A stretch of DNA of 64,000 bases from Isoetes taiwanensis (taxonomy: Eukaryota; Streptophyta; Lycopodiopsida; Isoetales; Isoetaceae), in contig JAJEKV010000002.1 of NCBI GenBank assembly GCA_021234155.1, positions 27,397,299-27,461,298 of the forward strand. The letters run 5' to 3'. The position numbers and the translations under genes are program-made. Shown here one piece after another: positions 23,850 to 52,182 of this stretch (position 1 is its first letter; each line of letters opens with the position of its first letter). The notes under the pieces were generated by a model. It saw nothing but the letters and a program-made list of their open reading frames with translations, did no database searches and was not told the DNA's origin.

Positions 23850-24091
23850 TTAGAAATTGATCTGTAAAATATGTGCCTTTATCAGGGGAAGATGCTGATT
23901 TGGAAAAGCCTGCCTAATCCATATCTTCAAAATCCGCTTGATCGTGAATCTGATGTTTGTCCTTTTCGCCTGCATTTGAATATCATCGTCTAGAAAATTT
24001 GGAAGAGATGTCTCATACAGCCTTCCCATCACTTCTGGAGCCGATACTCCCATACAGATAATACAACTTTCGTTGGCGGCTTCATTCAAAA
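23850..24091 (-). pseudogene. Possible host exon split by E2, downstream half
   Basis: The minus strand reads LNEAANESCIICMGVSAPEV and then MGRLYETSLPNFLDD up to the left end of E2-OA. The frame can be continued on the other side of the transposon at 42366-42304, which starts MSNVVYLKQEMPVYFTHDLL. This suggests that E2 landed in an exon. The family is not recognised. Confidence 0.3.
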
Positions 24092-24170
24092 CAAGATTGC
24101 GTATTAAACGGGAGCAAATCATCGAAACGAGAGCAAAAGGAATATTCCTCAAAGATTCCTTTTTTTTTTA
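24092..24170 (+). repeat. E2-OA left terminal inverted repeat
   Basis: Shares GATTGCGTATTAAACGGGAG and CAAAGATTCC plus T-run with the left end of OB at 27112-27190, and inverted with the right ends at 37924 and 42303. Confidence 0.85.
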
Positions 24171-24461
24171 CAAAGGGGGGTAAAACTAGGTTAAAAAAGG
24201 ATGCATGAAATTCTATTTTGACCCCCAAAATGACTAATTTTTTTTGTGCAACGAAAGAATTGACATTTTTAAAGTGTCACTTTTCTTAGCAAATAGAATG
24301 TTCTTGAAGTATATTTTACGAGAGAATCTCTAATTCGAGGATAAAATATTTAACAAAAAAAATTGAAGTAAGTCCGTGAATCGAAATTGTAGTATTCTCA
24401 AAATTTGAAGATAGAATCTTCATATTCACATGCAAAATTCTGATCTTTTTCTAAGACTCGC

Positions 24462-27111
24462 TTATGTACAAAAGTGTGAGGAGTGATGAGAGGGATCCGG
24501 GACGTCATCATGTTCATTTATGCCATCCTCATCACCTTCACTTCTTTCACTATCACTAGAGGAAGTGCTTGAGTTATCTTCCTCATCACTATCAACAGAT
24601 GGTGAAGCATTGCCACCACCTTCTTCATCCTCTTCTTCGTAATTACAAGCTTTTTTAAGCAAATTGATAGTCCTCTGGCGTAGACGATTGTCAGATTTCA
24701 ATTTAAAATCATAGCATAATATAGTCACGTCATTAAGGATCAGCTCATCCCTACAACCCACCTTCTTGGACTTTCTCCCTTTTCCTTGGCTTCTCATTTC
24801 TAACTCATATATACCTTCAAAAGCATTTTCTGAGCGTGTTGCAAGCCAATGAATCTTGAGTTTAGTGACTAAGCCTTCCTCCTTGACTGTGTCAAGCACT
24901 TTTGCTATCCAGAAAGGTCGACCTTTGTCATCCTCCTCAGTTGGAAGAGCAATTAGCATACCCTTGGTAATTTCTGTGATATTACCTTGAGGCTCATTCC
25001 TGCGTCTTGGTCCGAGGTACATGACTCGATCCTCGTCTTCTTCTACTGCAGGTGCTAATGTAGCATTGCTTGGACCTGCTTGGTGATGGGGTTGATGGAA
25101 GGTGTTAGGCCATTGAAATGGTTCTTGCAACTGTCTTAGAGCTATATTTTTCACAACAATTTTCTGCTCGAGAAAGAAGTTACTCCACCACATCCGATCT
25201 TCTTCTAAGAAGTACTTAAAGCCTGAGAAAATTCCATTTTCAATGGCTTTTAAGGATGACTCTGGGGTACTTTTCTTACGCTTGGACTCCTTAGGATTTT
25301 TGAGAGGAAGTTGCTCAAAGACGCTCTACTGAAGGAAGTGTTTGGAATATATTTAAGGAAGCGTAATCCCTCTGGTGGACTCCAGTCCTTAGTTGTGGTA
25401 TACTTCTTGCCCTGTAAGAAACTCTGGCCATCCTTCAAGTAGAACTTGATGTGATGTTGAAAGGTGAGATCATTCAATTTGTTCACGCCTTGTTCTCTCG
25501 TCTGAACGTTGAGAGAAAATAAACTCTCAAAATCAGCAAATCTCTTTAAGAAGATCGATCAACGGAGTGGGACCGTAAGAATCTTCAATAATTCGAACTA
25601 AAGTAGGAAGAGAGAAAGCCTTCTTCCTTCTGAGGCGCACAGAAAATCTGCTGAACATTTGGTCAATTTGATCATGAGTGTGGCCTACAAGTAAGAAACC
25701 CAGCTTCACTTTTCTAAAGATCCCTAGCTCCACTAACATGGCACAGTACGCAAAGAGTGTTTGGTTCTTGTTCTCCCTTGTAGTATTGTCAAGTTGCAGG
25801 TAAAGCACTGGTGGTAATTGCTCTTGCTCGCACAGGACCTTGTTAAGAATTGTAATTGTGAGGTTCGGGTCACCATGCAAGTTTGGATACGTCAAGAATA
25901 CTTTGCACTTTAGACTTCCTTTGAAGACCATAGCTCCTACAAGGTGGACCTTAACAAAACATTCCTCTGGCACATCTTTAGGAATGTTCAAGAAATGCGG
26001 TAGAGTAGTTTTTTTTTGGTCCATTCCATCAATCACAACAGACATATATTGCAGTGGACGTTCAAGAGCTTTTTTTCTGTGTTTGGCAAGCTTTCTTCTC
26101 TCTGCTGCTTGTTGTTCACGATGTCTGACAAGGCTCTGTTGCACAATATCTGTAGAAGAAATGAGGTCAAAGCATTATCTTTAAAACAAGTGAGAGATTG
26201 GAGAACATGAGCTTACTTCTTTTCGACCTCTCCTGCTTTTTGCAGTTCTCTTTGACTCTTTAATTCTGCACACCTTGAGCAAATAGACATTCTATGTCTC
26301 CTGGGAATTTTCACTAAACCGAATTCACTTTTCCACAGTCTGGTGAAGTGTGAGTAAGAGATGTGCTGAAGCTGAGTGCAAGTCTCTTTGTACTCATTAA
26401 AAACATCTTTTTTGGTGATGTTATCAGTTAAATGATACATGTTACTGTTAGGCAGCTTCTCACATGTTTCTCTAAAATATTTCTCCATCCATGACACAGC
26501 AGCGGTTACAACTCTTCTTGGTCCACAATGATCATCAATTGCTGGATTTTTGTCCAGTCTTTTGTGTATTCTAGACATTCTGGTGGACCCTAAACGGTGG
26601 ACAACCATAAAGCATTTCTGGCAAACTTCTTGACGGTTAATGTAGTGCAAGAAGGTGTTGCGGTCTGGTCTTACATGATAGGCCAAATAGGCATTCTGGT
26701 CAGCCAATGTCATTGAACTGTAGTTGTCTCTAATTGCTCGTAATTTAGCCATGTTAAATTTGTTGATGCAACCCAATGAGCAGCATTTACTTCTTAAAAG
26801 TCTTCTCATTTTGTGCTCGTCCATAAGGTTTCTTCTTCTTACAGAGGAGCATGCTCTCAAACTAAAATCCACCTTGAATTTCTTGGTGGATTGGCTAGAG
26901 AATGTGTAATCTCGTTGCACTTCGTTGGTGTCTTCATCTTCTGAAGAGAGTTCTACTCTGGGGGTGACCTCCTCTACCCTTAGTGGTGTGCTTGTAGAGG
27001 AGAACAAACCACGTGAAGCTATACCCGGATAAGGCGGAGGTGCAGTGTTGAATGAAGGAGATGGGCCACCATATGATGTGCCAGCGAAAGTTGTTGTAGC
27101 TTCTTCACAAA
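24462..27111 (-). pseudogene. DUF7869-type transposase-like protein, OA copy (main part)
   Basis: The minus strand, from 27111 down, gives a linker with EDEDTNEVQRDYTF, then a Cys-containing region (CCSLGCIN, NRQEVCQKCFMVVHRLGS, MSICSRCAEL) to about 26215. After a small intron the core follows (about 26150-25533): VVIDGMDQ, VLYLQLDNTTRENKNQ and LVGHTHDQIDQMFSRFS. These are hallmarks of DUF7869 proteins, a transposon-linked family in plants and animals. The C-terminal part (25486-24462) has PFWIAKVLDTVKEEG, KLKIHW, and an acidic Ser-rich tail ending SHFCT. The Asp residues of IDGMD and LQLDN and the HTHD/IDQ motif could form the active site (inference). Two single-base insertions relative to the OB copy break the frame (near 26216 and 25520). 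The N-terminal exon was cut off by insertion of OB at 27112. Confidence 0.8.
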
Positions 27112-27190
27112 CAAAGTTGCGTATTAAACGGGAGCAAATCATTGAAACGAGAGCAAAAGGAATATTCCTCAAAGATTCCCTTTTTTTTTA
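27112..27190 (+). repeat. E2-OB left terminal inverted repeat
   Basis: Nearly identical to 24092-24170. It is followed by about 450 bp that match 24171-24635 until the R3 insertion at 27638. Confidence 0.88.
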
Positions 27191-27480
27191 CAAAAAAGGG
27201 GGTAAAATGAGGTTAAAAAAAAAAAATGCATGAAATTCTATTTTGACCCCCTAAAATGACTAATTTTTTTTTTAACGAAGGAATTGACTTTTTTAAAGTG
27301 TCACTTTTCTTAGCAAAAAGAATGTTCTTAAAGTATGTTTTAAGAGAGAAACTCTAATTTCAGAGGATAAAATATTTAACAAAAAATTGAAGTAAGTCTG
27401 TAATTGAAACTGTAGTATTCTCAAAATTTGAAGATAGAATCTTCATATTCACATCAAAATTTACAGTCTTTTTCTAAGAC

Positions 27481-27637
27481 TCAGTTATGTGCAAAAGTGT
27501 GAGGAGTGATGAGAGAGGGATCCAGGACGTCCTCATGTTCATTTATGCCATCGTCATCACCTTCACTTCTTTCACTGTCACTCGAGGAAGTGCTTGAGTT
27601 ATCTTCCTCATCACTATCAACAGACGGTGAAGCATTG
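27481..27637 (-). pseudogene. DUF7869 protein, OB copy, C-terminal tail
   Basis: Encodes the acidic Ser-rich tail (SPSVDSDEEDNSSTSSSDSE and following) matching OA 24480-24610. It is separated from the rest of the OB gene by the R3 insertion. Confidence 0.8.
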
Positions 27638-30098
27638 TACGGTCCAGATCTTGGAACAAATGGCAAATATGCCTATCCGACAGCTCTCGTTGCCCGGAGT
27701 AACCCCCCGTGTGAATATGCACCCAAACCAAAGGGGGTTTAAGGGGGATTTTTATTTAAATGTGTCAAATGCAATGGTTTGTGTTAATAATGTTAATGGT
27801 TTGTGTTAAGTAAAAAAAATTTTGGCCCCTTCGGGGCCTTAAGGATGGTGTCGGGGTGTACATATAAACATTACCTAATACTGTAATGATGGATGGTATA
27901 TCATAGCCTCACAAATCTAACAAACTAGAGGTGCTCAAATTATGGAAACAAAAACATTGCGAAGAATTAGACATATAATATTATACCAATACCAATATTA
28001 ATACATGAGGTAGTATGTGATAATAGAACTAATAATGAACAAGTCTTACACATGAGACATTCTATTTCTGTGATGCCAAATTGCCGATCAATCAAGCCAT
28101 TGGTTAAATTCATTGCCACCTATATTGACCAGTGCTAAGTTGCAGTTAGAAACTGATCAACCCTCTTTCGAGGTTCGATATGGCACTATTAATTTGACCA
28201 GCAGGTTGCTAACGGCAATTTTCATACTACCGCGTTAAACAAGAAGGAACAATTGAATATTCAAAGTCTGGATTTGGATGATTTACACTGGGATGAGTGT
28301 AGTTCCGGTCAATTATATCTTTAGGTACATTGGAATCTCGTGCAAGCTGCATTAATGCAGCAAGTGCGGAATTTGTACTTGGATTCGGTCCCCCTTCTCG
28401 TACCCTGCAAGAAACCCCGGATGTGGCCCAATAAGCAAGAAGTCTAGAGTTAACATTCAAATTCTGATTTATCACGTGGAACACCTAATCCATTTTCTTT
28501 AAAATGTTCCCTAGGGGGCATTACCATCTTAGCCTAAGATTTATGAGCAAACAAGACCATTCATACTCTTAAACACAATATAAACCACCAGATCCATTTG
28601 TTTTCCTGAGGTATTCCTAGTGCTCCTCTTTATCCACAAAATGAAAACTTAGTGGGATGTATGAAGTGTTGCTTCTAAATAATGAAACCTGGATATAAGG
28701 AGATGCAGCACTATCTTCCACTGTAATTAAGCAACTCTTAAACCTCGGGATTCCAAATAACAAAAGTTGAATGTGCAAATGCTTCAATTTGAAAAGGACA
28801 CTAACAAGTCCTCTCACATTGTGTTAGTTTCTTCTATGGATCCAATTCCTTGCTTCGATCAATGCTCATCATCCCGCTACTGTAAACAATTGTGGCTTTT
28901 CTTAACTACTACCTAACAGAGTCTCATCTGCAAGGATGTGTCATGGTTCAGACGGACACTATTTTTGTGCATAATGCATATTAAAATGTGGACCATCTTC
29001 CACAACTACATGAGCATTTCTAACCCCAGTGTTGCCACAACTGCATGTGTTGTATATGGCACGCCTTTGGGCTTGAAATGGTTTCTCACGCATGCGAGAG
29101 TCTCCAAATTATAGCACTATTGGGATGATTTACCAATCGGGCTGAGGCGCTTACAAAGAGCAACATCGGATTCATAATGAAGTCTGTAAATTATTCTTCA
29201 AACAAGTTTCTTCAAATAAACCTCGATCAGTTTTCCAACAAACCTCAACAAACGTCTGAAATTTCTAAGACATATCTGAAGATGTCTAAGAATTTACCAG
29301 GACTCTGCCTTTGAAGAGCTCTTGGTTTCAGGGTGCTCCTTGGAATTAGAGGTCTTATGGGATGAAGATACCACTCTGCAGACAATGGCATTTTCAAAAC
29401 AGAGCAATGAGGAGGATGTAAGCAAAGGAAATGACATACCATTTTAAAAAAATGACAAAAACCCTGGAACTCTCATGAAGAACACCCGCCAGAGAAAAGA
29501 CCCTGAAGATGTTTTGACAGAGGAGATCCGCAGAGAGATAGAAGATCTGATTCTTGCCCCGTAGAAGAAATACATCAGAAAACATTTTGTGAAGAAGAAC
29601 CGGCATGCTAGTTGCCGGACCAAGCACCTGTTCTCCAAAATCTTACTCGATGTCTGCCATAGACATACAAATGACCATCCATGATTTTTTTTACAAAGAA
29701 ATCCATGATCTTGATACCATTCTCTGTTCTAGCCATTTCCGCTGTCTGCTGGCATGGCACTACAGCACAGCCAAGCAAGAATCGGACAAACAAGGATTTC
29801 TCCCCATAAAAAACCCTAAAATTCTTTCTTCCACGAACCCTAAAGTAAAGGTCTCGATACTTGCATGTATTTTTGCATGTATTTTTGTATTTTTGGGAGT
29901 AAAAGAGATAAGCTATTTGTGAAGGAATAAATATGCAATGCAAAACCATTGTAAAACCATAGATGCCATTGAAATATGCATGCACTCTAAATGTACTGAT
30001 TAGTATGCCTCGTGCAATACGCCCATGAAATCATATGAAAACCATGCCAAAAAGCGTACAAAATCACAAAAAAAACCCCCTGTTATTTTGCTACATAT
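27638..30098. mobile_element. Repeat R3 copy 1, 2,461 bp, inserted in E2-OB
   Basis: Begins TACGGTCCAGATCTTGG and ends CCCCCTGTTATTTTGCTACATAT. It is almost identical over its length to 57062-59518. The OA gene is continuous at the equivalent point, so R3 was inserted into OB; about 26 bp of OB were lost at the joint. No transposase gene is visible and a YebC-like fragment is carried inside, so R3 is a non-autonomous element that has captured host sequence. Its class is unknown; no clear inverted ends or target duplication was found. Confidence 0.82.
28227..28484 (-). pseudogene. Captured YebC/TACO1-type gene fragment in R3 copy 1
   Basis: The minus strand encodes VREGGPNPSTNSALAALMQL followed by ARDSNVPKDIIDRN. 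This matches the conserved helical region of YebC-family proteins (REGG.NP..N..L...I..A...N.PKD.I.R), which in organelles help translation. Only this exon is recognised. It is flanked by stops, so it is not a working gene. The same fragment is in R3 copy 2. Confidence 0.72.
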
Positions 30099-30106
30099 TC
30101 ATAATT

Positions 30107-33100
30107 ACAAGCTTTTTTAAGCAAATTGATAGTCTTCTGGCGTAGACGATTGTCAGATTTCAATTTAAAATCATAGCACAATATAGTCACGTCATTAAGG
30201 TTCTGCTCGTCCCTACAACCCACCTTCTTGGACTTTCTCCCTTTTCCTTGGCTTCTCATTTCTAACTCATATCTACCTTCAAAAGCATTTTCTGAGCGTG
30301 TTGTAAGCCAATGAATCTTGAGTTTAGTGACTAAGCCTTCCTCCTTGACCGTGTCAAGCACTTTTGCTATCCGAACGGTTAGACCTTTGTCATCCTCCTC
30401 GGTCGGAAGAGCTAATTAGCATACCTTTGGTAATTTACGTGATATTACCTTGGGGCTCATTCTCCGCCTCTTGGTCCGAGGTACATGACTCGGTCCTCCT
30501 CGTCTTCTCTGCAGGTGCAAATGTAGCTTTCGCTTGGACCCGCTTGGTCTTTGGGGTTGATGGAAGGTGTTAGGCCATTGAAATGGTTCTTGCAACTGTC
30601 TTAGAGCTATATTTTGTACAACAATTTTACTGTTCGAAAAGAAATTACTCCACCACATCCGATCTTCTTCTAAGAAGTACTTAAAGCTGAGGAAATTCCA
30701 TTTTCAATGGCTTTTAAGGATGACTCGGGGTACTTTTCTTCTGCTTGGACTCCTTAGGATTTTTGAGAGGAAGTTGCTTTCGGCCGCTTCTATGAAGGAA
30801 GTGTCCGAATATATTTAAGGAAGCGTAATCCCTCGGCGGACTCAGTCCTTAGTTGTGGTATACTTCTTCCCCAGAAGAAGCTTTGGCCATCCTTCAAGTA
30901 GAACTTGATATGATGTTGAAAGGTGAGATCATTCAACTTGTTCACGCGGCTTGTTCTCTGTTTGAACGTTGAGAGAAAACAAACTCTCTGAAATCAGCGA
31001 TCTCTTTAAGAAGATCGACCAATTGGAGTAGGAGTGTAAGAATCTTCAATAATTCGAACTAAAGAAGGAAGACGTAAAGCCTTCTTCCTTCTAAGGCGCC
31101 ACGAAAAAATCTGGCTTTGAACATTTGGTCAATCTGATCATGAGTGTGGCCTACAAGTAAGAAACCGAGCTTCACTTTTCTAAAGATCCCTAGCTCCACT
31201 AACATGGCACAGTACGCAAAGAGTGTTTGATTCTTGTTCTCCCTTGTAGTATTGTCAAGTTGCAGATAAAGCACTGGTGGTAATTGCTCTTGCTCGCACA
31301 GGACCTTGTTAAGAATTGTAATTGTGAGGTTCGGGTCACCATGCAAGTTTGGATACGTCAAAAATACTTTGCACCTTAGACTTCCTTTGAAGACCATAGC
31401 TCCTACAAGGTGGACCTTAACAAAACATTCCTCTGGCACATCTTTAGGAATGTTCAAGAAATGTGGTAGAGTTGTTTTTTTTGGTCCATTCCATCAATCA
31501 CAACAGACATGTATTGCAGTGGACGTTCAAGAGCTTTTTTCTATGCTTGGCAAGCTTTCTTCTCTCTGCTGCTTGTTGTTCACGATGTGTCCAAGGTTAG
31601 GTTTGCACAATAACAATATCGTAGAAGAAATCAGGTCAAAGCATTTTCTCTCAAAACAAGTGAGAGATTGGAGAACATGAACTTACTTCTTTCGACCTCT
31701 GTCTTTGCAGTTTCTCGTTGACTCTTTAATTCTGCACACCTCGAGCAAACAGACATTCTATGTTTTCTAGGAATTTTCACAAGACCGAATTCACTTTTCC
31801 ACAGTCTGGTGAAGTGTGAGTAAGAGATGTCTTTGGCTGAGTGCAAGTCTCTTTGTACTCATTAAAAACATCTTTTTGGTGATGTTATCGGTTAAATGAT
31901 ACATGTTGTTTGTTAGGTAGCTTCTCATGTTTCTCTAAAATATTTCTCCATCCATGATACAAAAAAGGGGCATGCATGGTTACAACTCTTCTTGGTCCAC
32001 AATGATCATCGATTGCTTGGATTTTTGTCCAGTCTTTTGTGTATTCTAGACATTCTTGTGGACCCTAAACGGTGGACAACCATAAAACATTTCTGGCAAA
32101 CTTCTTGACGGTTAATGTAGTGCAAGAAGGTGTTGCGGTCTGGTCTTACATGATAAGCTAAGTAGGCATTACGATCGCCAATGTCATGGAACCAGTAGTT
32201 GTCTCTAAACGCTCGTAATTTAGCCATGTTAAATCTGTTGATGCAACCCAATGAGCAGCATTTAGTTCTCAAAAGTCTCCTCATTTTCTGTTCATCCATA
32301 AGATTTCTTCTTCTTGCAGAGGAGCAAGCCCTCAAACCAAAATCCACCTTGAATTTCTTTGAAGATTGGGTGGAGAACATGTAATCTCTTTGTTCCTCGT
32401 TGGTGTCTTCATCTTCTGATGAAACTTCTACTCGGGGTGACTTCCTCATCCGAAGTGGTGTGCTTGTAGAGGAAAACAGACCGCGTGAAGTTGTTCCCGA
32501 ATAGGCGAAATGTACAGTGTTAAAGGGTGGTGATGGCCCATAAGAGGTTGTGGCATCACCGTTCTTGTACCATCTTGAAAAGGAGTTCTTGCAAACATCT
32601 CCTTTAGAGCGGACTGGAATTCTCAAATCCATGTGTCACAACCGTTGTTGTGTGAAGAGGAGTGCATCTTTGGAGCTTAGTCTTCATTTGTAGTGAAGTC
32701 CCCGTGAGAGAAATTGTAGTGAATCTCACGGTCTTACGTGTTTTTCTGTGTTCCTTGTATGTTTGCAACGAAGGAGGCGAAACTACAAAAGGCGGGGGGT
32801 AGCTTGTTCTTGAGCACCCTTTGTTGTGGAGCTTCAGAGGGTCCGGGGATGGAACAAAGGGTGGTGGCAACCTGCTCGAACCGGTGGTGATTCTTTGGAA
32901 GAGGAGATGCCGGTGTCTTTGTCTGAGGACTTGGTGACGGTTGGAAGGGTGGTGGAAGTCCGTTACGTCTTTGGACTCGGTGAATTTTCAAGAAGCAAGA
33001 ACGATGAAGTAGAGGTAGGAGTCGGAGAAAACCGGTCTTGGAAGAAACGACGTTGGTCCCGGTGTGTGTCCTCGAAACTAGACGAGCTTGAGATAACGAA

Positions 33101-33137
33101 AGGTGGTGGAAGTTTGTTGACGGCGGTTTGTCATCTT
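30107..33137 (-). pseudogene. DUF7869-type transposase-like protein, OB copy (main part)
   Basis: The start is probably ATG 33137 (MTNR.., after one frame correction). A Pro-rich N-terminus follows with PPPF..SP units (about 33130-32750), then the acidic linker and Cys region (32632-31690), a small intron, and the core (31600-31020: LPPVLYLQLDNTTRENKNQ, VGHTHDQIDQMF). The C-terminal PFW/KLKIHW region reaches down to 30107, where R3 cuts it from its tail. Compared with OA it has many short clustered changes and several frameshifts. Where OA has an extra base at the exon end near 26216, OB has the in-frame version, so the two copies complement each other's damage. Confidence 0.78.
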
Positions 33138-33965
33138 AAGAACGCAAAAACGATTAGTAGAGTTTAGATAATGTTTCTCTCTTTGCAGAGCTTTTCTTAT
33201 TCCGAATACAAAGCCCGCCTACTACAAGTAGAAGTTTACCGCAACAATTAAGTGAAAGGCAAACTAAAAGCTATTCCCGAATACACTAGAGCAGAACAGT
33301 AAGGCCAAACGTATTCCACTTCACATAGAAAACGAGCAAGACGGAATGGACACCTTTAAAAGGAAATTTTGGCGCCTTCAGTTGCGTATTCCAGTCTCGA
33401 AATAAGTCGCCCGGCCCCGGTATATCGATTATAATATTCAGAGCTGTATTCCGATACTCATAGAGAAAACATGGAGAGGTGAGTAAGAAAGTACAAGGTA
33501 CAATCATTTGTGTGTCTGTTTCTTATTCCGGAATACACTTACCCCTTTCCTCGAAGGCGTAAGTGTATTCCGGAATACACTTTCGCCTTCGAGGGAAGGC
33601 GTACGTGTATTCCGGAATACACTTACGCCTTCGAGGAAAGGGGTAAGTGTATTCCGGAATACACTTACGCCTTCGAGGAAAGGCGAAAGTGTATTCCGGA
33701 ATACACTTTCGCCTTCCCTCAAAGGCGTAAGTGTATTCCGCAATACACTTTCGTGTTCTTATGTTTTGTAAGGTTATTTTTCCGTGATTTTTGTAGTAAC
33801 TTTAGGTGTTTTTTCTGCTTCTAAAACTTGTTTAGACCTGTTTTTTTGTCAAGATTGCAGTGTTGTTTTGGCATTTTTGTCCTCTTTTTGCCCTTGTTTT
33901 TTCCTTTTCGCAAGACATTTTGTATTCTGGAATAGTTTTTTGCCACTGCTTTCTCTAACAAGATC
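33137..33965. promoter_or_regulatory. Divergent upstream region between the two OB genes
   Basis: About 0.8 kb separates the start of the minus-strand transposase gene from the plus-strand methyltransferase gene, and the first recognisable plus-strand coding begins near 33966. A conserved block (33290-33500) containing CGTATTCC words recurs at 38600-38820 in OA. The palindrome array (33520-33760) lies on the methyltransferase side. A shared control region is inferred from position only. Confidence 0.5.
33518..33762. repeat. Array of six TATTCCGGAATA palindromes
   Basis: Six copies of TGTATTCCGGAATACA (the first short by two bases, the last with one change) are spaced about 42 bp apart. They alternate with CGCCTTCGAGGAAAGGCG-type spacers that are themselves inverted repeats, so arms of 20 bp or more pair on each side. 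Both strands read as repetitive frames with no protein meaning. Confidence 0.93.
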
Positions 33966-36900
33966 GTGTTTACACACAATTTGCACAGACAAGAAGGCAG
34001 CAAGAAACAACACAAGAGGACCGTTAAAATCCCAACGAAACCGCACCCACAGAGAAGGGTTGAGGAGACATCTGCGCCTGCTATCTACGAAAACTTTCAA
34101 ACTCAATGGTTTTTTACAAGGGGTACTTCTGGAAAGTACAGCACACTTACTTTTTTACATGTCTGTCGGAGTGCTGGAGCAAAAAGGTACGATGAGAGGG
34201 AATTTGTCTGCATGGGCACCATCCAGGCCGTGAGTGAAGTAGCTGGGGAGTCCGGTCAGCGAGGGAGACTGTCTTTTCAGACATCCCAAGGCTTTATTCA
34301 TGTTGATGAATCCTATTTTAGAGTGGTGAAAGTAAATCCTCATCCTCTATATAAGTATGTTTCTCACTACCTCAGCAAGAGGTCGCTCTGTGCCATCATC
34401 AACTACGTTCGAAGCACAACGAGCGAAGACTTCCCCTACAGCGAGTCATCACAAGGGGAAGAGGATGACCAACCGAGCCCGAGCAGTGCATCATCACAAT
34501 CTGGGAGTCCATCACAGTCCGGCGAAAGGCCACCGTCACCACCACCAAAGAAGCGGCCAAAGGGAAACAGTTGCTGCTAAAGAGCCTAAAAAAAAGCAGA
34601 CGGCTTTAATTGCAGCAGAGGATATTTCCGAGGAACCTAAGAAGAAGAAGGGGAAGGGTAAAGCACCTGGTGTTGCTATTAAGGAAAAAAAAGTTGACAA
34701 AAAAGATGGAAGAGATTAACCTGCACAAGTTTGTGCAAGGTGTCATTTATTTGCCAGTCACTTCAATGAAGCTTCCACCGAAAAATGAAGCTGGTGAAAG
34801 GCCACTTCAGGTTCGCAAAATTTATGCCGATCACTTAAGGAACCTGAAAGACAGAATAAGGAGCAATCCAAATGCTCATGTGGCCCCAATAGTTGTCCTT
34901 GTTGACAGGGAAGAGTGCAAAACCCCCCAGGACTATGACAGAGAAAACGCAGAGACCTACACTCACTACGTCTTGGGAGGCAATCACAGCTTTAAGGCAA
35001 GAAGGCAACTTTATAAAGAGAAGAAGAACCCGAGGTACCTCTCCGTCCTCTGCGCTGTCTACTGTGGTCTTACCGATGAAGAAGCGAAAATCGTTGCCAA
35101 CACCCACAATGCTGACAACGAATATAAACTAAAGATGAGCTTCGTCGACAAGATCCGGTTCATGCACAGGGAGTACGTAATTTTCAAGGAAAAGTACGGT
35201 GAGGACCTGAAGAAGCCAGCGTTTTCCTTGGAGCTTAAGGAGGCGTGTGCCATTGAATGCTGCCTGAAATATGACGAGGCCAACAAAAGGCAGTCTCTCA
35301 TTGGCCACGACAACTGGTTCCAGTTAGCTTTTAGAGATGGCAAGGTAAGCACAAAATGTATTCCAGAATAGCAAATCAACTATTTAACGTGAATCTTCTT
35401 GAACAGATTTGGGAACTCCAGGACCAGATATTTACAATGTTCGAGCGAGGGGAGTTAAAGAGCAAGGGAAAGGAGACAGCTAAGAAAAAAACCTCAGACG
35501 TACCCAAAAAAGAAATGACCATTACCGTCTGGCGGGAAATGCAGGGCTTCTCCGACACGGAGCTTCTCGAGCAGCTTCTCCAAAAAGTTGTTGATAAGGA
35601 GTTTAGCCTAGAAGAAATGTCAAAGGAATTGCACAAGTAAGTTCTCTGACACAAACATTAGTTATTGCATGTTAGATTCCCAAAAACATCGGCGTAGCTA
35701 GTGTATTCCAGAATACACATGCCTTCCTTTACACGGGCAATGTGTATTCCGGAATACACATTGCTTGTCTCTAGAAAGGCATTGTGTATTCCGGAATACA
35801 CATTGCCTGTGTGAAGGAAGGCATGTGTATTCCGGAATACACATTGCTCCTCTGAATGTTGGCACAGTATTACGGAATACGCATGCGTTCCTTTAGAGAA
35901 GCAATCTGTATTCCGGAATACACATTGCTTTTCTAGAGACAAGCAATGTGTTTGTCCTGTAGCAGAACTATTTTCTGCATATTGTTTCGAGGTAGCATCA
36001 CAAGTTAACCGGTTTGTATTCCAGAATACAAATAGCTTGACTTTTATTTGTTTTTCTTTTACGTTGCCTTCATTCTTTCGTTTAAACTCATTGTTTCCTT
36101 AACGTCTTGCAGCCAAAAGAACGTCATAACATGTCAAACATGTTTGATGGAGCAGCTAAACGTCGACACATGGGAAAGGTGCAAGGAACTCTACCCAATT
36201 GCCACATCCGACGAGCGCATTGTGCAATATTCACCAAATTTTGAGGGCTGGGTAATTACTCTTAGAATTCCTTTTCTCTCACAAAAGCGATCTCTTGGCG
36301 GTTGTTGTTTTGTTTTTCTTTAGAGCAAAAAGAAAAATAAAGACCTACCCAAGGGCTTTATGAATTTGGTTAGAAACAAAGACGGGAAGAGAGGTCGTTA
36401 GGCTGAAGAAGAACTGTTGAGCGAAACCATCCGACTACTGAGAGATTCTCGCATGTTTGATCAAAACAATTTATATTCAATCATTCATGGTGATTGCCCG
36501 CGAACCTTGTCGAACGGTTAAGCCACAGGACTTTACTTTGGTTATTGCTGATCTTCCCTATGGGTTTAAGCTTAAAGACAGCAGATACGACGACCAGCCC
36601 TTCAAATTTTCAGAGTTTAATGCTTTCATTGAAGGAATCAAGCAGATCTCAACGGCCAAACATTGGCGTTTAGTTACGTTCCATTCGAGCATGCAGTCTG
36701 GCTTGGTGGAATCAGCTTTCAAAAATCACTTTGGTTCTCCAGTTCAGGCAGGATATGAAAACCTTGTCTGGTAAGTCTTATTCCAGAATACAATTACTTT
36801 TCTCTTTAATTACGTAGTGTGTATTCCGGAATAGTATTTCCTGTTTCTGGTTTTCGAAGTGTTTTCTTGTTTTTGCTAACATCACTTTAAATGCTTCACT

Positions 36901-37509
36901 AGGTACAAAACGAACATCAACTACCATGGTGGAGGACCAAGGTTGCTCAGCAAGGTAGAGTACCTTCATGTAGCTTATTGGAGTTTTGATGGGAAGAGGA
37001 CCATGGAACACTTTAACACTGCCGCCTGTCAAAACTTTTCAAACGTCCTAGAGTTTCCAGCAGTCTTACAGAAATTGCAGGACCCAAGTGCACAAGGCAG
37101 GATTGTGAATCACTACCAGAAACCACAAAAGCTCATCAACCATCTCCTGGACATGTTCTCGCGTCCAGGAGATTGGGTGCTTGATGCTTTCTCTGGTTCT
37201 GGTACTACTATCGCATGTGCACTTAAGAAGGGCCGCAACTGTGTAGCCGTGGATATTGATAAGGAGGCTGTGCATTTTGTGAAGATGAGACTGGCTGCCT
37301 TACCTACTTTACCAGATGAAAATCAAGAGTTAGGGGCTAAGTCTTCATCTGATTATGCTAAACTAACGTCCTCAGAGATACAGCCTCCATTCTCCAGCTC
37401 ACTAGACGATGAGGCAACCTTTGCAGAGCTTAAAGAAGTAGCTTTAGCTACCATTCCGAGAGGGACAAGGAGGATAAAAACTCAAGTCTCCAAAGAAAGG
37501 AGCAGATAG
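33966..37509 (+). pseudogene. ParB-like domain fused to beta-class DNA methyltransferase (OB copy, nearly complete)
   Basis: Exons: 33966-35344, 35407-35636, 36113-36251, 36324-36770 and 36903-37509, all with GT-AG introns. The N-terminal 150 residues are unknown (IQAVSEVAGESGQRGRLSFQ), followed by a Ser/Pro and Lys-rich linker. Next is a ParB/sulfiredoxin-like domain (about 34720-35340) with LPVTSMKLPP, VAPIVVLVD and GGNHSFKAR (34976-35002). The methyltransferase has SIIHGDC, motif IV DLPY (36550-36561) and motif I DAFSGSG (37183-37203). IV before I is the beta order of bacterial N4-cytosine/N6-adenine DNA methylases. Damage: frameshifts near 34575, 34705 and 36510, and a TAG at 36399-36401. 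The first two lie beside A-runs and may be sequence errors. It presumably methylates DNA, perhaps the element itself (inference). Confidence 0.85.
35695..35950. repeat. Second array of six TATTCCGGAATA palindromes (intron 2 of the methyltransferase gene)
   Basis: Six sites, four of them exact TGTATTCCGGAATACA, lie in the 476-bp intron between 35636 and 36113. Flanking arms GCAATGTG/CACATTGC extend the palindromes. Further single sites lie in or beside other introns near 35360, 36014, 36781 and 36820. Confidence 0.92.
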
Positions 37510-37845
37510 AAACGAAGAAGGAGATGGCGAGAGAGCAGCAAAAAGAATGAGGAGGACTATGATGTAGATCTTTGACTACTGCATATAAAAAGTATCATTA
37601 TTTATTACAATGAATCTTCAATATTGATGTACAACAATTTATTAAAAACATAATACTTTTTTTTCCTTTCTATTCTGGTGCTTTTTTTTGTAATGCTTTC
37701 AGTCTCTTCAAGTCTATGCCTAAATTTCGCTATTTTTATGATTTCTATTTCATAAGTACAAAGTTTTCGTCTAATGATGGGCCAAAATGGCATGAAAAAA
37801 AATGCGAACCTCCATAAATTCTCAACAACTATCAAAAAAGGCTTA

Positions 37846-37924
37846 TTTTAGAAACATGGTATTTTTTTAAAGGGAATCTTTGAAACGGGAGTGATGCAAC
37901 ACTCCCGTTTAATTTGCAATCGTG
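37846..37924 (-). repeat. E2-OB right terminal inverted repeat
   Basis: Contains AAGGGAATCTTTGAAACGGG, an internal palindrome (AAACGGGAGTG..CACTCCCGTTT) and AATTTGCAATC at the outer edge. The same block ends OA at 42230-42303. Confidence 0.88.
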
Positions 37925-38458
37925 TTCACAAGGAGTTCGATCAAACATGTCTCTTATAGCAGACTGAAATTCTGCAAAACCATGTGTCACCACGGTTGTG
38001 TGAAGAGGAGTAGATGTTGCAATGTCGTCTTCATTTGTTGTGAAATCGTGGTGGGAGAAGCTGTGGTGAATCTCGCAGTCTTCAGAACGTGCTGTATTCC
38101 TTGTTTGTGTAAGTGAAGATGGAGAAACTACAAACGGCTGAGGTAGTCTATTTCGAAATATTCTATGAGGTCGAGCATTTGTAGTGTCGGGGGATGGTAC
38201 AAATGGTGGTGGAAGATTGCTACGTGCAACAGGTGAGGGTTGGAAAGGTGGTGGCAACCGGTTTCCTACTGGACTTGGAGAGGGTTGGAAAGGTGGTGGC
38301 GATCTACTAGTTCTTGGACTCGAGTGTCTTGAGAAGCAACAAAGACCTTGTCGAGGTAGGTGTTGAAGAAGCATCTCTGTCTTGTGTTCCATCTGAAGTA
38401 GAGGTACTTGGGCAAACAAATGGTGGTGGAAGTTTGTTCACGAAGCGGTTAACCATGT
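37925..38458 (-). pseudogene. DUF7869 protein, OA copy, N-terminal exon cut off by OB
   Basis: Probable start ATG 38458 (MVNRFVNKLPPPFVCPS). It is Pro-rich with repeated PPPFQPSPS/PPPFVPSPD units and ends EFQSAIRDMFDRTPCE exactly at the OB insertion point; the frame resumes at 27103. One frame change lies near 38330. It parallels OB 33137-32600. The remainder of this gene is at 24462-27111, 10.8 kb away because of the nested insertion. Confidence 0.78.
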
Positions 38459-38514
38459 TGAACAACTGAAAAAAATTGTGGACTTGTTACTAACTCACAA
38501 GTCGATTAAACTAA

Positions 38515-39195
38515 TGATATTCGAGAATACAAATGCTATTCCGGAATACTAATTTGTGTGCGGCATTTGTCGTGTGTGTGCCTGAGATGCTATTCCAGAA
38601 TACACTTGGCCAGAGTGTTTGAACAAGACGTATTCCGCATCACATAGAAAAATGCAACTGACAGTGGCCTACCTTTAAAAAGGAAAATTCAGCGCCTCAG
38701 TTGCGTATTCCGCTTCCAGAGATTTAGTCGCCAGCCCGAGCGCCTTCCGATCTATATTGATTTGCTGTATTCCGATTCACATAGCGAAAATAATGGACAG
38801 GTAAGCAATTAAAGTACATAGTACGTCTTTCGTGTGGAATACACTTTGCAAATTTTTCTGCATTTATTACCTCCATTCTTTCGAAGGTCTTATCAACTTT
38901 CTTTTCCTTTTCCCTTCTGTTTTTTTGTGCTTTCCTCGGGGATTTCAGCAACTTCAAGCTGCTGTACCTTCCGCTTCTTTGGTTCCTTAGCGGCTATGGT
39001 GGTAAACTTTGCAGAAGACACTTTGCTCACTGTCAAAGTGCAAAGTGTATTCTGGAATACACTTTGCTCTTCGCCCGAAGGGCAAAGTGTATTCCAGAAT
39101 ACACATTGCTCTTGTCCCGAAGGGCAAAGTGTATTCCGGAATACACTTTGCCCTTCAGCCGAAGAGCATAGTGTATTCCAGAATACACTTTGCTT
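38515..39195. repeat. OA palindrome array and single sites
   Basis: Four TGTATT-C-(C/T)(A/G)-GAATACA sites lie at 39042-39190 with GCCCGAAGGGC-type spacers, and single sites near 38520, 38540 and 38595. The spacers differ from those of OB, whereas the palindrome core is kept. Confidence 0.85.
38830..39020 (-). pseudogene. Inverted fragment of the methyltransferase linker in OA
   Basis: The minus strand encodes AAKEPKKRKVQQLEVAEIPE and continues to an EVINAEKFAKCI segment. This matches the OB linker and ParB-domain start at 34575-34740 (AAKEPKKK.., EEINLHKFVQ). OA also has this sequence in the plus orientation near 40090-40250, so the fragment was copied or inverted. Confidence 0.65.
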
Positions 39196-39469
39196 ATCTT
39201 CTTGAAAACACTAGTTTTTTTGCACTTGAACACCACTTTTTAGCTGTAACAGACCACTTTTTAGGTTGAACATACCACTTTTTAGTCCAATCAAGGCATA
39301 AAAAATTGTGTTAGAGAGACAATATTTGTGTTTTTTTTCTTGTCTTTTGCTAGCCTTTAGGGCACATGATTAGTAAATCTTATTACGGTGAATATTAGCT
39401 ATATCTGCCGACCACATTTAACTGGAAGGGCGACTTAACAATTTTTCATCTTAAATAGTTGTTTGTTGG

Positions 39470-41870
39470 CGGGGAAGAATGCAACAAAAGGGCATAAAAA
39501 AAGAGGAAGATTAAGCGTCCACACACCCTCAAAAGAAATCATAGCTTCAACACAAGACGAGCCCACTATTTAAAAAAACTTTCAAATCTCAAAGGTTCAT
39601 TACCGGTGGTCTCACCGAAAGTAAAAAAAAATCGTTGCCAACACACACAATGCCCCTCGAGTAAAATTAAAGATGAGCTTTGGAACAAAGTTCATGCCGA
39701 CCACAGAAGTACATGATTTTTGGGACAATTAAAGAGGTCTCGAAGGTAGCCTTACAAGGAGGTCGGCGGGAGGCTATCCTTCAAGACCTCCCAAGGGTTC
39801 ATTGTTGTGGACAAGCTGGTTTTCTTTAGAATTGTGTGCAACCACGAGAGTAACCTTTTGTATTCGGAATAACTTTTTTCACACTACCGGACTAAACCTC
39901 GCCTATCTTCACTAATTAGGACATGGGACCTACTAAACAAGCGAAGACTTTCTGGTGAATTGAGTCGAAGCAATCGATGGAGGATCATCACCTTCTCCTA
40001 AAAATTCCGGCGGTCATCGCTTTGGAGGGTCCCAAGACCTTAGAAGAGGGACATCCCCGAAAGCATAAAAAGAAACTTAGCGTGGCCAAGAGCCACCATA
40101 GAAGAAAGGAACCAAAGAAGCGAAGGTAAAAAGCAGCTTGAAGTTGCTTTAGGTTTCCCCGAGGAAAGCACAAAAAAAACGAGAATACAAAAGGAAAAGA
40201 AACACTGATAAGACCTCGAAAAGAATGGAGGTGTAAATGCACATCTCGCTTCTGTACAAAGGGTGTTCTATCTTCACTTTTGCTTTCATGAGGTGAAAGA
40301 AATTCGAATGGTTTTTAACGAATGAGTCGAAAAGTGTATTCAGGTTACAATTTGGTTTCCTATATTGGTGTTTTAAGGAACCTGAAAAGAAGTCTCATTT
40401 TGTTTCCTCCTTGTGCTCTTCCGGCCAAAAGTTGTCCTTGTTGCCAAACGAGTTTAATGGAACACCCCCGGACTATGACCGAAAAAAGTCTACAAAGACT
40501 CACTATGTCTTTGGAGGAAATCATAGCTTCAAGGCAAGAATACAGCTCCAAAAGGAAAAAAAAAGAACCCCCGGTTTCTCTTTTTAAAGTTTTTCCTTTG
40601 TGTTCTCATGAAGAAGCTTTAATCATTAACAACACACAAGAAGAACAAGGACAACGAGTACAAATTTTTAGATGAGCTTTGTCGACAAGATCAAGTTCAT
40701 GCGGACGGGAGTACATGATTTTTAAAGAAAAATATGGAGAAGACTTTCTATGAAACGATCAAAATAATTTTTATTCTATCGCTTCATGGGAAGCACTAAG
40801 TTGCCGCCTAAAGTATAAAGCCACAAGATTTTACAAACGGTCATACCGCACTTGCCATATGGTTTTAATTAGCCTTGATAGCCACTACGACGATCAAGTT
40901 TCTTTTGTATTCGGAATAAATGCTTTTGCCTTCGATGGAATTAAGCGTTCATACCACAAAGAAATGGGACCTACAAAACTTGTTTTTTCCATTTCGAAAG
41001 CATGGTGAATTGAAAAGTAAAGGAAAGGTCTTTCAAAAGAAAAAAGTTCGTGTTCCAAAAAAAAAGAAATGACGATAAAGCCGGTTATGAAAAATCATGG
41101 TCCGGTCTGAGTCCTGGACATACTAAAAGTGCCGCTCATGTGTTCTTTCTTTCAAAGTTTTTATTCATGGTTGAAATGTCCAAGGGTCTATTCTCGAATA
41201 CGTAAAACTATTCGGAACTTTCGTTTTAGGTTTCTTTATTAACTAGCACTAAGCGTATTCGAGAATACACTGAGGATCTCCATGTAACTACTACGGATTC
41301 CCGGGGTAGTCTACCATGGAGTATTCCAACAATACACAACCGCCCGAAATTTTTCTAGTGTCCAAAGTGTCCCGCCAGTATTATAGAAGCTCTAGGACCC
41401 AAGTGCACAAGGCGAGAATTGTAAATCATTATCGAAGCCACAAAAGCTAATCAACCATATTCGGACATGTTCTCACGTCCGGGGACATTGGTACCTTGAT
41501 GCTTTCTGTGCACTTAAAAGGGCGTGCATTGTGTTGTTGTGTTGTTGACATTGATAAAGAGGTCAGACTTCATCAAGATGAGGTTGTCCGCTCTACCAAC
41601 TCTACCAGGATGAAAATCAAGAGTTAGGAGCTAAATCATCATCAGATTTTGCCAAGATGACATCCTCTGAAATACAGCCTCCTTTTACAAGCTCTCCGGA
41701 AGATGAAGCTACCTTTGCAGAGCTCAAAGAAGTAGCTCTAGCTACTATTCCTGAAGAGACTGTTGACACCAAAGAAAGATAAAACAAAGGACAAAGGAGC
41801 AAACCAAGAGATAGAAAAAAGGTGAGAAAGCAAACCACACACCGAGGACTTGATTTAGACCTCACGAAGT
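39470..41870 (+). pseudogene. Decayed ParB-methyltransferase gene, OA copy
   Basis: Recognisable parts are an N-terminal piece near 39710-39840, the ParB motif GGNHSFKAR near 40514-40540, LPYG near 40852, a worn motif I region near 41470-41520, and the C-terminal tail (SSEIQPPF, DEATFAELKEVALATIP) at 41640-41760. Every section is broken by indels. Blocks of later sequence are inserted into earlier parts: 39630-39720 repeats the stretch that also occurs at 40620-40730. It is certainly non-functional as written. Confidence 0.8.
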
Positions 41871-42229
41871 TTTCTTTTGCTATATTATTTATTATTGGCT
41901 ACAAAAATCTTGCCATATTTATTTGAAAGAAATTAATAAAAAAAAAAAAAAATTTTTTTCGTATTTGGGTAAAAGCATGTTAGAAAACCTGAAATTAATA
42001 AAAAAAAAAATTTTTTTTTATTTTCATTATTTTGGATGTCTTAAGATCCTAGTAATGTTCTAGTGTATTTATTGAGTGTTACATAGGAATTCTCCTATTT
42101 TCAAATGCTCTTTTTTTTGGATGTCTACAAATGTTCCCGAGATTATCATTTTAAAGGGCCCCAAAATGCATGATATAATATTTTGTTCCACTTAAAATCC
42201 CAAGCTTCTTTTGAAAATGATCATTTTTC

Positions 42230-42303
42230 CAATCTTGGTGTTTTTTTTAAGGGAATCTTTGAAACGGGAGTGATGCAACACTCCCGTTTAATTTGCAATC
42301 CTG
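42230..42303 (-). repeat. E2-OA right terminal inverted repeat
   Basis: Differs from 37846-37924 by only a few bases. The two right ends diverge immediately after GCAATC plus three bases, which sets the element border. Confidence 0.86.
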
Positions 42304-42366
42304 TTTCAATAAGTCATGTGTGAAATATACTGGCATCTCCTGTTTAAGGTACACCACATTCGACAT
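42304..42366 (-). pseudogene. Possible host exon split by E2, upstream half
   Basis: The minus strand from ATG 42366 reads MSNVVYLKQEMPVYFTHDLL up to the E2-OA border and can join 24091 downwards (NEAANESCIICMG). The protein family is not recognised. Confidence 0.3.
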
Positions 42367-50953: not shown

Positions 50954-52182
50954 GTGCCTCGGCGTGGTATCCCGGAATTGCCGTGGTTTTTCCATGGCGT
51001 ATGGGGACAGTCTCAATTCCGCCGCCATGGACATGGACCTTATCTTCCTCATGGAAACATGGGAACATGTTTGGTCACAAAGCTACCTGATTTGCCCGGA
51101 TACCAAAGCTACTCCGTCTTCAATGAGTGCACCGGAAACGAGGACACGGAGGAATGCGTGTTACTACCGGGCGGCCTTGGCCCAATCGGTCTCCCCTGTT
51201 GCAAGGCGCAGGCAGGCTGCTTGATACACGTGGGCAGTGCGTAAACGGCGATGGCAGCCCTCTCTTTGTGGCGGCTTGCTACTTCCCACATCTTTGAGAG
51301 CAACTTTTACCACACGCGCGGATGTGGGCCAGGCAGGAGCCCTATGTCGATCTATATGATGACATCTGGCCGTCTGAACAATTGGGCAAGGTCATGTTGC
51401 TTGGAGACTTCAATGCGCCGCGACAGGGGAAAGAGCGGATCCCAAAATTCGCACCTCTAGGCGAGGATGTGTTGCAAATGGACCCCGCAGATGGTTTGGC
51501 CAAGGCGTCGGATGACAGCCGGGTTACACCTGTATGGCCGGCAAATGCTGTTGTTTGGGCGAAGATCTTTGACCCGGTCATTTGCAATGGGTCAGCACGA
51601 TGGTCGTCCTCCAGCCGCTTCACTTGTAGACAGGAGAACCAGGGGGGCGGCACCAGTGTGGTGGATTACGTGCTAGCAGACGAGCAATGCCTACACTTGA
51701 TCACTCGTTTCAGTATCGGGACAGGTGGCCGGGACGAGGAAGTAGACTCCGACCATCAGCCCCTGTTCTTGCAGATAGATTGGCAGGCCAACCGAGCACC
51801 CATTGCCCCAATACCCCATGTACCACGGTTACGTCTGGACTATGATCGTGCGGCGGTCTATGCGAGGATGCTTGAGCATGAGCTGCCGGGAGTGCTGCAA
51901 CTCCCCACACTTCAACAGCAGACGGCCCAGCTGAACCAGCTCCTTCTGAGGGTAGGGGACAGATGCTTTGGGAGAGGCCGCTCTCGACGATCCACAGGGG
52001 CTGCAATCACCTTCCCTCGCAATCACTGGTTCGATGACGAATGTCGGGAGCTGAAACGATGGCTCCGCCAAGTGCTGGACCCCACCATTCGCCCGCAGGC
52101 CGTCCGTCAATACCGCTCCTTCCTCAAGACCAAGAAAGCCAGGTACCTTGCAGAGCACCAAAGAAGATGTTTGGTCTTCTAG
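50954..52182 (+). pseudogene. LINE ORF2: endonuclease domain and linker
   Basis: An early piece reads NCRGFSMAYGDSLNS and DLIFLMETWE, the N-terminal APE motifs, followed by LPGYQSYSVFNE in another frame. A long open stretch at 51322-52182 has VMLLGDFNAP (the GDFN motif), GTSVVDYVLAD and SDHQPLFLQIDW, the catalytic Asp/His region. Such endonucleases nick the target to prime reverse transcription. At least one frameshift near 51100-51300 separates the parts. Confidence 0.82.

Follow-up and report, generated by a model that had tools for sequence, protein, structure and literature searches.

A 64,000-nucleotide stretch of the Isoetes taiwanensis genome (assembly GCA_021234155.1, contig JAJEKV010000002.1, forward-strand positions 27,397,299 to 27,461,298; hereafter the window) raises the question of what a DNA methylase of bacterial type is doing inside a plant DNA transposon. 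We found that the window holds two nested copies of one transposon family, whose members pair a transposase-like gene carrying a DUF7869 domain with a divergently oriented gene for a ParB-methylase fusion. The non-coding parts of these elements carry arrays of palindromes of the form TAT-NNN-N'N'N'-ATA, and in each subfamily a single core leads (TCC, GCG, GAA or AAA). Our preferred explanation, to which we give a probability of roughly 0.55 from sequence comparison, is that the fusion protein recognizes, and probably adenine-methylates, the palindromes of its own subfamily and would thereby control the element.

The outer copy, element A, spans 24090-42305 and consists of 24090-27109 and 37927-42305, interrupted by the inner copy, element B, at 27110-37926. 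Element A is flanked by a 4-bp duplication, tcaa (24086-24089 and 42306-42309), and element B by another, caca (27106-27109 and 37927-37930). An initial annotation had proposed inverted repeats bounding a span of 27112-42303; such repeats do close both elements at both ends and the pair of elements is real, but that span joins the left end of element B to the right end of element A. The left repeats lie on the plus strand at 24090-24114 (element A, starting AACAAGATTGC) and 27110-27134 (element B, starting AACAAAGTTGC), the right ones on the minus strand at 37902-37926 (element B) and 42281-42305 (element A); repeat and terminal searches gave both copies inverted repeats of about 25 bp, with AACAA at the 5' end and GTGTT or CTGTT at the 3' end. 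Both copies are broken: the methylase gene of element A is riddled with stops and heavily decayed, that of element B has frame breaks, and in element B the transposase gene is interrupted at about 27638-30097 by some 2.46 kb of unrelated, foreign DNA, which appears as a break in the alignment of element B to element A.

Other members of the family were sought in the genome of the same species (1,658,258,908 bases in 1110 contigs), and we call the lineages defined by their palindrome cores subfamilies A to D, as distinct from elements A and B. Comparison by eye revealed a 4-bp target duplication in 16 of the 17 copies with both ends found, that is, in 13 of the 14 copies of subfamily A (8 of 9 in one set and 5 of 5 in the other), in both copies of subfamily C and in the single copy of subfamily D; L002 is a two-ended copy that has none, and the target duplications share no common sequence. 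Subfamily C and D copies differ in their inner terminal repeats, yet they start with AACAA and end with TTGTT. The terminal-repeat search gave no ends for subfamily B, none for a subfamily D locus on C1084 and no left end for a subfamily C locus on C1059. Among 11 subfamily A copies the closest pair shows 95% identity over the methylase half, and three subfamily C loci share about 97% identity at their right ends. In sum, the copies form an old, high-copy family of DNA transposons with terminal inverted repeats, AACAA...TTGTT-like ends, a 4-bp target duplication and a length of about 8-9.5 kb.

The transposase-like gene of element A occupies 24462-27098 on the minus strand, in frames at 24462-25325, 25250-25558, 25533-26174 (the DUF7869 part) and 26213 to about 27098, and its decayed counterpart in element B lies at 30098-32635 on the same strand, with the DUF7869 part at 31059-31493. 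Both match PF25273 (E=3.7e-48 in element A and 2.2e-38 in element B), which was the sole Pfam match above cut-off for the transposase frames; no KDZ name was returned by Pfam, which presumably includes a KDZ profile. Acidic positions are conserved in the DUF7869 protein (D49/D52, D129 and D168/D171), which is the likely DDE/D-type transposase; in three diverged copies it retains 69-74% identity to that of the window. No DUF7869 protein was confirmed in viral contigs, and no paper naming "DUF7869" was found in the open-access literature.

Comparison of 11 copies resolves the methylase gene into six exons and five GT-AG introns, one more than the minimum of four that the initial annotation had counted, with single copies deviating at single splice sites; the exon boundaries were placed by hand, that of exon 1 by eye. 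In element B the gene runs on the plus strand through exon 1 (33471-33478, ATGGAGAG, then GT), exon 2 (33989-35344, with frame breaks), which encodes a fast-diverging N-terminus and the ParB-like region (34706-35344), exon 3 (35407-35636, a linker region), exon 4 (36113-36251), exon 5 (36324-36770, also with frame breaks), which holds the methylase start (HGDC) and motif IV (DLPYG), and exon 6 (36903-37509), which holds motifs X and I (KPQKLI, DAFSGSGTT). The decayed gene of element A lies on the plus strand within the approximate limits 38770-41790, with stops in both its ParB part and exon 6. Because the gene carries introns and is present in high copy number, bacterial contamination is excluded, as had been argued from the introns at the outset.

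The majority protein of 913 amino acids consists, in order, of an N-terminal region, a basic stretch, the ParB-like region, a linker and a beta-class methylase. The N-terminal region matches no family above cut-off, and the only Pfam match above cut-off in the whole protein is PF01555; the stretch 36880-37509 scores 64.5 bits against a curated cut-off of 26.7 (E=1.8e-17), which, with the two PF25273 matches, bears out the pairing first proposed. In beta-class enzymes motif IV, with the catalytic [DNS]-x-P-[YF], precedes motif X and an FxGxG-like motif I, and the order here is the same: HGDC...D-[LI]-P-Y-G, then KPQKLI...DAFSGSGTT. Motif IV reads DLPYG in most subfamily A copies; L016 and the C and D copies have DIPYG instead, and in the subfamily B copies the motif is broken. 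The nearest solved structure is CcrM (2.2e-11), followed by MboIIA and RsrI, with cytosine-N4 enzymes at 0.1-0.5, and the NCBIfam matches, CcrM (1.4e-11) and PRK11524, are both adenine-specific. Because of these best matches and the form of motif IV, an adenine enzyme is favoured, although the domain has repeatedly evolved specificity for N6-methyladenine (6mA) or N4-methylcytosine (4mC), according to the accessible text of PMC8885841.

That the methylase belongs to the family, and is not an accident of this locus, is evident from its linkage to the transposase. A first look at the genome gave rough counts of 3609 candidates for the ParB exon, 10,084 for DUF7869 and 3577 for the last methylase exon, and about 150 candidates were scored per query. 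Among the 150 DUF7869 matches listed, 31 had one of the 150 listed ParB matches in divergent geometry within 15 kb, against 0.1 expected, so the pairing goes beyond chance; 23 of these 31 pairs are spaced 2.7-3.1 kb. A divergent DUF7869 gene and the searched coding blocks of exons 2, 3, 5 and 6 were found in all ten copies that we picked from the ParB list, mostly for their long open frames, so a methylase without its transposase, which the initial annotation had named as evidence against its proposal, was seen in none of the ten. Another 97 listed DUF7869 matches had neither a ParB nor a methylase match listed nearby, and nine of these were picked by eye and fetched (six near the window's subfamily and three diverged); ParB and methylase are present in all nine. 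From the 150 listed PF25273 matches we chose 16 further loci by eye for variety, omitting window-like ones and reading 5 kb of each: eight have ParB and/or methylase and four the N-terminal exon alone (L025, L028, L031 and L032), so 12 of the 16 carry at least part of the methylase gene; a further one of the 16, L022, is ambiguous and is described below. By eye, L025 and L027 hold frames of other mobile elements inside. Three loci, L020, L024 and L035, have no methylase sequence in the 5 kb read of each, and these 3 of the 25 DUF7869-chosen loci may be copies that lack the methylase, the other kind of contrary evidence anticipated in that annotation. We conclude that the methylase is standard equipment of the family and has been kept with the transposase in diverged subfamilies; the core of the original proposal, a eukaryotic transposon family with its own methylase, is thereby sustained.

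Selection on the gene was judged from shared variants, defined as those common to at least two copies, in four coding stretches. Counted by codon position 1/2/3, they number 51/45/119 of 157 in the N-terminus, 23/17/148 of 213 in the ParB region, 28/19/117 of 147 in exon 5 and 21/9/112 of 179 in exon 6, and three methylase introns vary at 50-57% of sites. This third-position bias in all four stretches argues that the methylase gene is under purifying selection. We used these counts in place of pairwise ratios of nonsynonymous to synonymous divergence (dN/dS) because frame breaks distort several pairs; in the stretches kept, 17-44 of 55 pairs were usable, and the median dS was 1.5 in exon 6. 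Between subfamilies, identity is 20-33% in the N-terminus (three comparisons), 27-66% in the ParB region and 28-74% in exon 6, the last two over matched stretches of at least 40 residues with decayed copies included; better-preserved copies give, for ParB region and exon 6 respectively, 50% and 66% from A to C and 60% and 74% from C to D. The fast-evolving N-terminus is a candidate reader of the palindrome core.

The palindrome of the window, TATTCCGGAATA, occurs 32 times in it with up to two mismatches, against 2.5 expected. Those with no more than one mismatch, 24 in number, all fall within the elements, 18 in element B and 6 in element A. None of the 18 sites of element B is in an exon: one, with one mismatch, lies upstream of the methylase gene, between the two divergent genes (33272-33283), and 17 are in introns 1, 2, 3 and 5. 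Intron 1 has six TATTCCGGAATA sites at 33524-33745, spaced by 42 bp, the last with one mismatch, and another at 33923-33934; intron 2 has one at 35359-35370 (TATTCCAGAATA); intron 3 has six at 35704-35920, spaced by 40-42 bp, and another at 36017-36028; and intron 5 has two at 36779-36833, 43 bp apart. Element A has four at 39048-39185, again with 42-bp spacing, and others at 38537 and 38591. The identical palindrome recurs between differing linkers in different introns. In the 45.8 kb of the window outside the elements there is one palindrome (AAT), and the 15.7 kb of flanks fetched around 12 two-ended subfamily A copies contain no site. In all 12 of these copies the outermost sites keep a distance from the termini, of 3.5-4.4 kb on the left and 1.1-2.1 kb on the right.

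Across the family, the subfamily A palindrome is GTATTCCGGAATAC, and the diverged subfamilies lack the window's palindrome and have another one instead: TATGCGCGCATA in subfamily B (L017, L018, L028, L031 and L032), TATGAATTCATA in subfamily C (L019) and TATAAATTTATA in subfamily D (L021, L023, L025, L026, L027, L029, L030, L033 and L034). A count of all 64 exact palindromes of the TAT-NNN-N'N'N'-ATA form, covering 35 loci and the two window elements, put TCC in the lead in L001-L016 and in both elements, except for a tie in L007 (one TCC and one TCT), a locus with 11 TCC-type sites when one mismatch is allowed. GCG was the only core in the five subfamily B loci, GAA led in L019 (five, plus one AAA), and AAA led in the nine subfamily D loci; three AAA were counted in L022, and no exact palindrome of this form in L020, L024 or L035. 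In first-order random sequence, examined for five loci, the expectation is 0-0.06 such palindromes per locus, whatever the core.

Two loci show further repeat structure. In L019, 4723-4803 and 6653-6917 hold a perfect 41-bp tandem with the palindrome AAATCGATTT and a 112-bp tandem repeat; two TATGAATTCATA sites are within the 112-bp repeat and a third is just beyond it. In L022 (G000:C1030:12837052-12842052) the palindrome GCGCAGCTGCGC is repeated, often at 27-bp spacing, and a 527-residue frame on the unexpected strand has by eye the look of a diverged methylase of this kind, with no Pfam match above cut-off. L022 is possibly a fifth subfamily.

The element, its genes, their linkage, the selection on the methylase, the arrays and the single leading core per subfamily are observations, and together palindrome arrays and a methylase suggest an element that labels or switches on its own DNA. 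Such action on its own DNA, suggested in the initial annotation as marking with 4mC or 6mA that may regulate transposition or evade silencing, gains support that was not foreseen there from the placement of subfamily-specific arrays in non-coding parts, and the reading of the fusion as a self-directed regulator is put forward because layout, selection and arrays fit together. The ParB-methylase fusion would recognize the palindromes of its own subfamily and probably methylate adenine there, where the common TAT and ATA flanks offer one; marking at these sites would control or de-repress the divergent promoter and the gene body of the element. Its action would resemble that of VANC, exerted through a bacterial-type methylase, and both activation and restraint by autorepression fall within this scheme. 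One might go further and envisage a self-marking code, with adenine methylation on a fixed TAT...ATA frame around a changeable 6-bp core, in which a joint change of protein and array core gives rise to a new self-marking subfamily, much as if the specificity of a restriction-modification system had been converted into a label that tells self from non-self in expression or transposition; we offer this as a tentative idea, with the odds somewhat against it.

A number of points weigh against the self-directed regulator. Binding, methylation, the base modified and the direction of the effect are all things that we infer. With only four cores, protein and site can be compared across at most four lineages, and common descent alone could explain their co-variation. 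The ParB label is weak, and stands on the GGNHSFKAR motif, which is present as the initial annotation reported, together with weak profile matches. Of the two profile assignments suggested in that annotation, PF01555 held and PF02195 (ParBc) did not, with no match listed at E up to 5 for eight members in a search whose HMMER filters drop most weak matches. The ParB families of PHROG matched one of eight members at 4.5e-6 and others at 0.005-0.05, and NCBIfam TIGR03764 matched the window at 2.1e-4, far below its cut-off, and L019 not at all; because Pfam assigns these same proteins unrelated names at 0.002-0.01, ParB matches near 1e-3 carry little weight. A profile search of the Protein Data Bank with the ParB alignment gave three matches, the best at E 0.055, with unrelated names, and was set aside. 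Single-sequence structure models reached a predicted local distance difference test score (pLDDT) of 41 and 35 and were not used.

The cores and their readers are also less tidy than the regulatory reading would prefer. Other cores do occur, rarely, inside the elements (TCT once each in L006, L007, L009 and L014, TTC in element A, AAT in element B and TTG in L025), and L008, whose edge also holds parts of a neighbouring methylase, has three AAA beside ten TCC. L019 scores seven C-type (GAA) and seven D-type (AAA) sites at one mismatch, which makes these two cores overlap. Spacing varies too: most sites are 41-42 bp apart in subfamily A, against 40 bp in subfamily B, 28-32 bp in D and 100-115 bp in C. 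In per-site information, linkers mostly have 0-0.5 bits and the TAT/ATA ends 1.6-2.0, with adjoining arms partly conserved (234 A-type, 53 B-type and 161 D-type sites; the 7 C-type are too few to judge), but part of this peak follows from the choice of sites by pattern with one mismatch, and the recurrence of one palindrome between differing linkers is the stronger point. As for the N-terminus as candidate reader, within subfamily A it diverges while the palindrome stays unchanged (identity down to 51-63% in seven copies, and 40% in the decayed L011), and in subfamily B L017 and L018 share a palindrome, yet their N-termini are 83% and 37% identical to that of L028; outside the N-terminus these two loci are too decayed for comparison.

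Alternatively, the palindromes may be sites of the DUF7869 transposase, for binding or for regulation of a shared promoter, with the methylase acting on something else, such as the element as a whole or the intermediates of transposition. The transposase is itself subfamily-divergent, as the 69-74% identity of the three diverged copies attests, so it could co-vary with the sites equally well; one site does lie between the divergent genes, and L018, a subfamily B locus whose ends were not found, has sites near both of its sides. Transposase sites are usually subterminal, however, whereas those of the 12 two-ended A copies are far from the ends in every case, and the confinement of 17 of the 18 sites of element B to methylase-gene introns is hard to reconcile with such a role, which we consider quite unlikely. 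The intronic location would suit a different proposal, that host transcription factors use the palindromes as operators, or that these are elements of pre-mRNA splicing or structure, and that the methylase is a general writer of 6mA or 4mC. Within TTCCGGAA the arrangement TTC-NN-GAA is indeed like a heat-shock element. On the side of the enzyme, the bdelloid N4CMT, a methylase of bacterial type, deposits 4mC at active transposons according to the accessible text of PMC8885841. Nevertheless, the cores TCC, GCG, GAA and AAA are so unlike one another that one host factor could hardly serve them all, the TAT...ATA frame is kept throughout, and one site is also found upstream of the gene; we regard this proposal as improbable.

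The methylase might instead suppress or mark transposition, for instance through autorepression, so that the host suffers less damage. Being a narrower version of our preferred explanation, which leaves the direction of the effect open, this proposal is nested within it, so the probabilities we assign do not sum to one. A divergent promoter with a site between the genes, and arrays inside the methylase gene itself, would both suit autorepression, and the marks of N4CMT are tied to silencing in the accessible text of PMC8885841. But VANC, the nearest analogue in layout, counteracts silencing, as far as the accessible text of PMC5735166 goes, and no result here separates activation from repression; we judge suppression in particular to be a contender, if an unlikely one. 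That the methylase is non-functional, hitch-hiking cargo could be suspected from the broken state of both window copies and of several fetched ones, but the third-position bias in the four counted stretches and retention in diverged subfamilies make this very improbable. We thus return to the fusion protein as a regulator of its own element as the best explanation.

Elsewhere in the window, three other features were noted by eye: a 304-residue frame on the minus strand at 7763-8677 that looks like another transposase (GSGHGKGTHDGEVG), frames at 47256-48959 resembling a cytochrome P450 gene, and a frame at 51298-52182 like the endonuclease of a long interspersed nuclear element (LINE), where the DNA is rich in GC (up to 59%, at 50-54 kb).

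If the self-directed regulator is real, a bacterial-type adenine methylase would have been evolving within a DNA transposon of a plant, serving the element as regulator and accompanied by its cognate sites, and the contested matter of adenine methylation in plants would become directly testable at predicted palindromes inside named elements. Four cores imply at least three core changes, and the four related pairs of methylase and site would offer material for learning how specificity changes.

Mobile elements with DNA-modifying enzymes have several precedents. Fungal KDZ transposons carry TET/JBP genes and are alike in being DNA transposons with an enzyme that modifies DNA bases, which in their case is an oxidase and here a methylase. 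DIRS retroelements with a Dam-like domain, and retrotransposons with captured DNA methyltransferases (DNMTs), likewise join a mobile element to a DNA methylase, but they are retroelements, and we know of no cognate site arrays in them. No description of a transposon-borne ParB or adenine methylase of this kind was found among the papers listed from the open-access literature, and the term "methyltransferase" is absent from the accessible text of a review on gene capture by plant transposons (PMC13317346). CcrM and similar bacterial adenine methylases have the same beta-class motif order and are the nearest relatives in sequence, at a similarity that is only remote; exon 6 is 26-33% identical to phage methylases among the matches listed, the ParB part has no relative in phage records, and no methylase relative was confirmed in viral contigs or in the genomes of bacterial and archaeal species. 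As to the transposon itself, the Sola superfamily has a DDD-type transposase, a 4-bp target duplication and a length of mostly 2-9 kb, and is present in a moss (PMC10741241, accessible text). The target-site length, seen here in 16 of 17 two-ended copies, and the acidic residues fit, in a comparison that included no Sola protein; a ParB-methylase and arrays go unmentioned for Sola in the accessible text of that source.

The bdelloid N4CMT is similar in being an amino-methylase of bacterial type that has introns in a eukaryote and is linked to transposons, but, in the accessible text of PMC8885841, it is a captured gene with a chromodomain and an SPPY motif that makes 4mC, whereas the gene described here belongs to the transposon and combines a ParB-like region with D-[LI]-P-Y. 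The closest parallel is provided by VANC and the VANDAL elements of Arabidopsis, which are Mutator-like elements (MULEs). There, according to the accessible text of PMC5735166, VANC binds short motifs of its own VANDAL elements, located in their introns and in intergenic and terminal parts; the motifs occur as tandem repeats, are family-specific and are proposed to co-evolve with the protein. Both systems have a second element-encoded gene and element-specific arrays of motifs in non-coding parts that differ between related families, and the subfamily-specific arrays found here are a trait of just this type. In contrast, the VANC motif, YAGTATTAY, is not palindromic, whereas the sites here are palindromes with a fixed TAT...ATA frame; VANC function was established from chromatin immunoprecipitation (ChIP), gel-shift and bisulfite data, whereas our proposed regulator is known by its layout only; and VANDAL is a transposon of another type. 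The main text of PMC5735166 is without the word "methyltransferase". If the regulator described here acts as we propose, it would mean that sequence-specific self-regulation of the VANC type has been invented twice, independently. Each ingredient of the element has precedent; the palindrome arrays go beyond what the initial annotation had noted.

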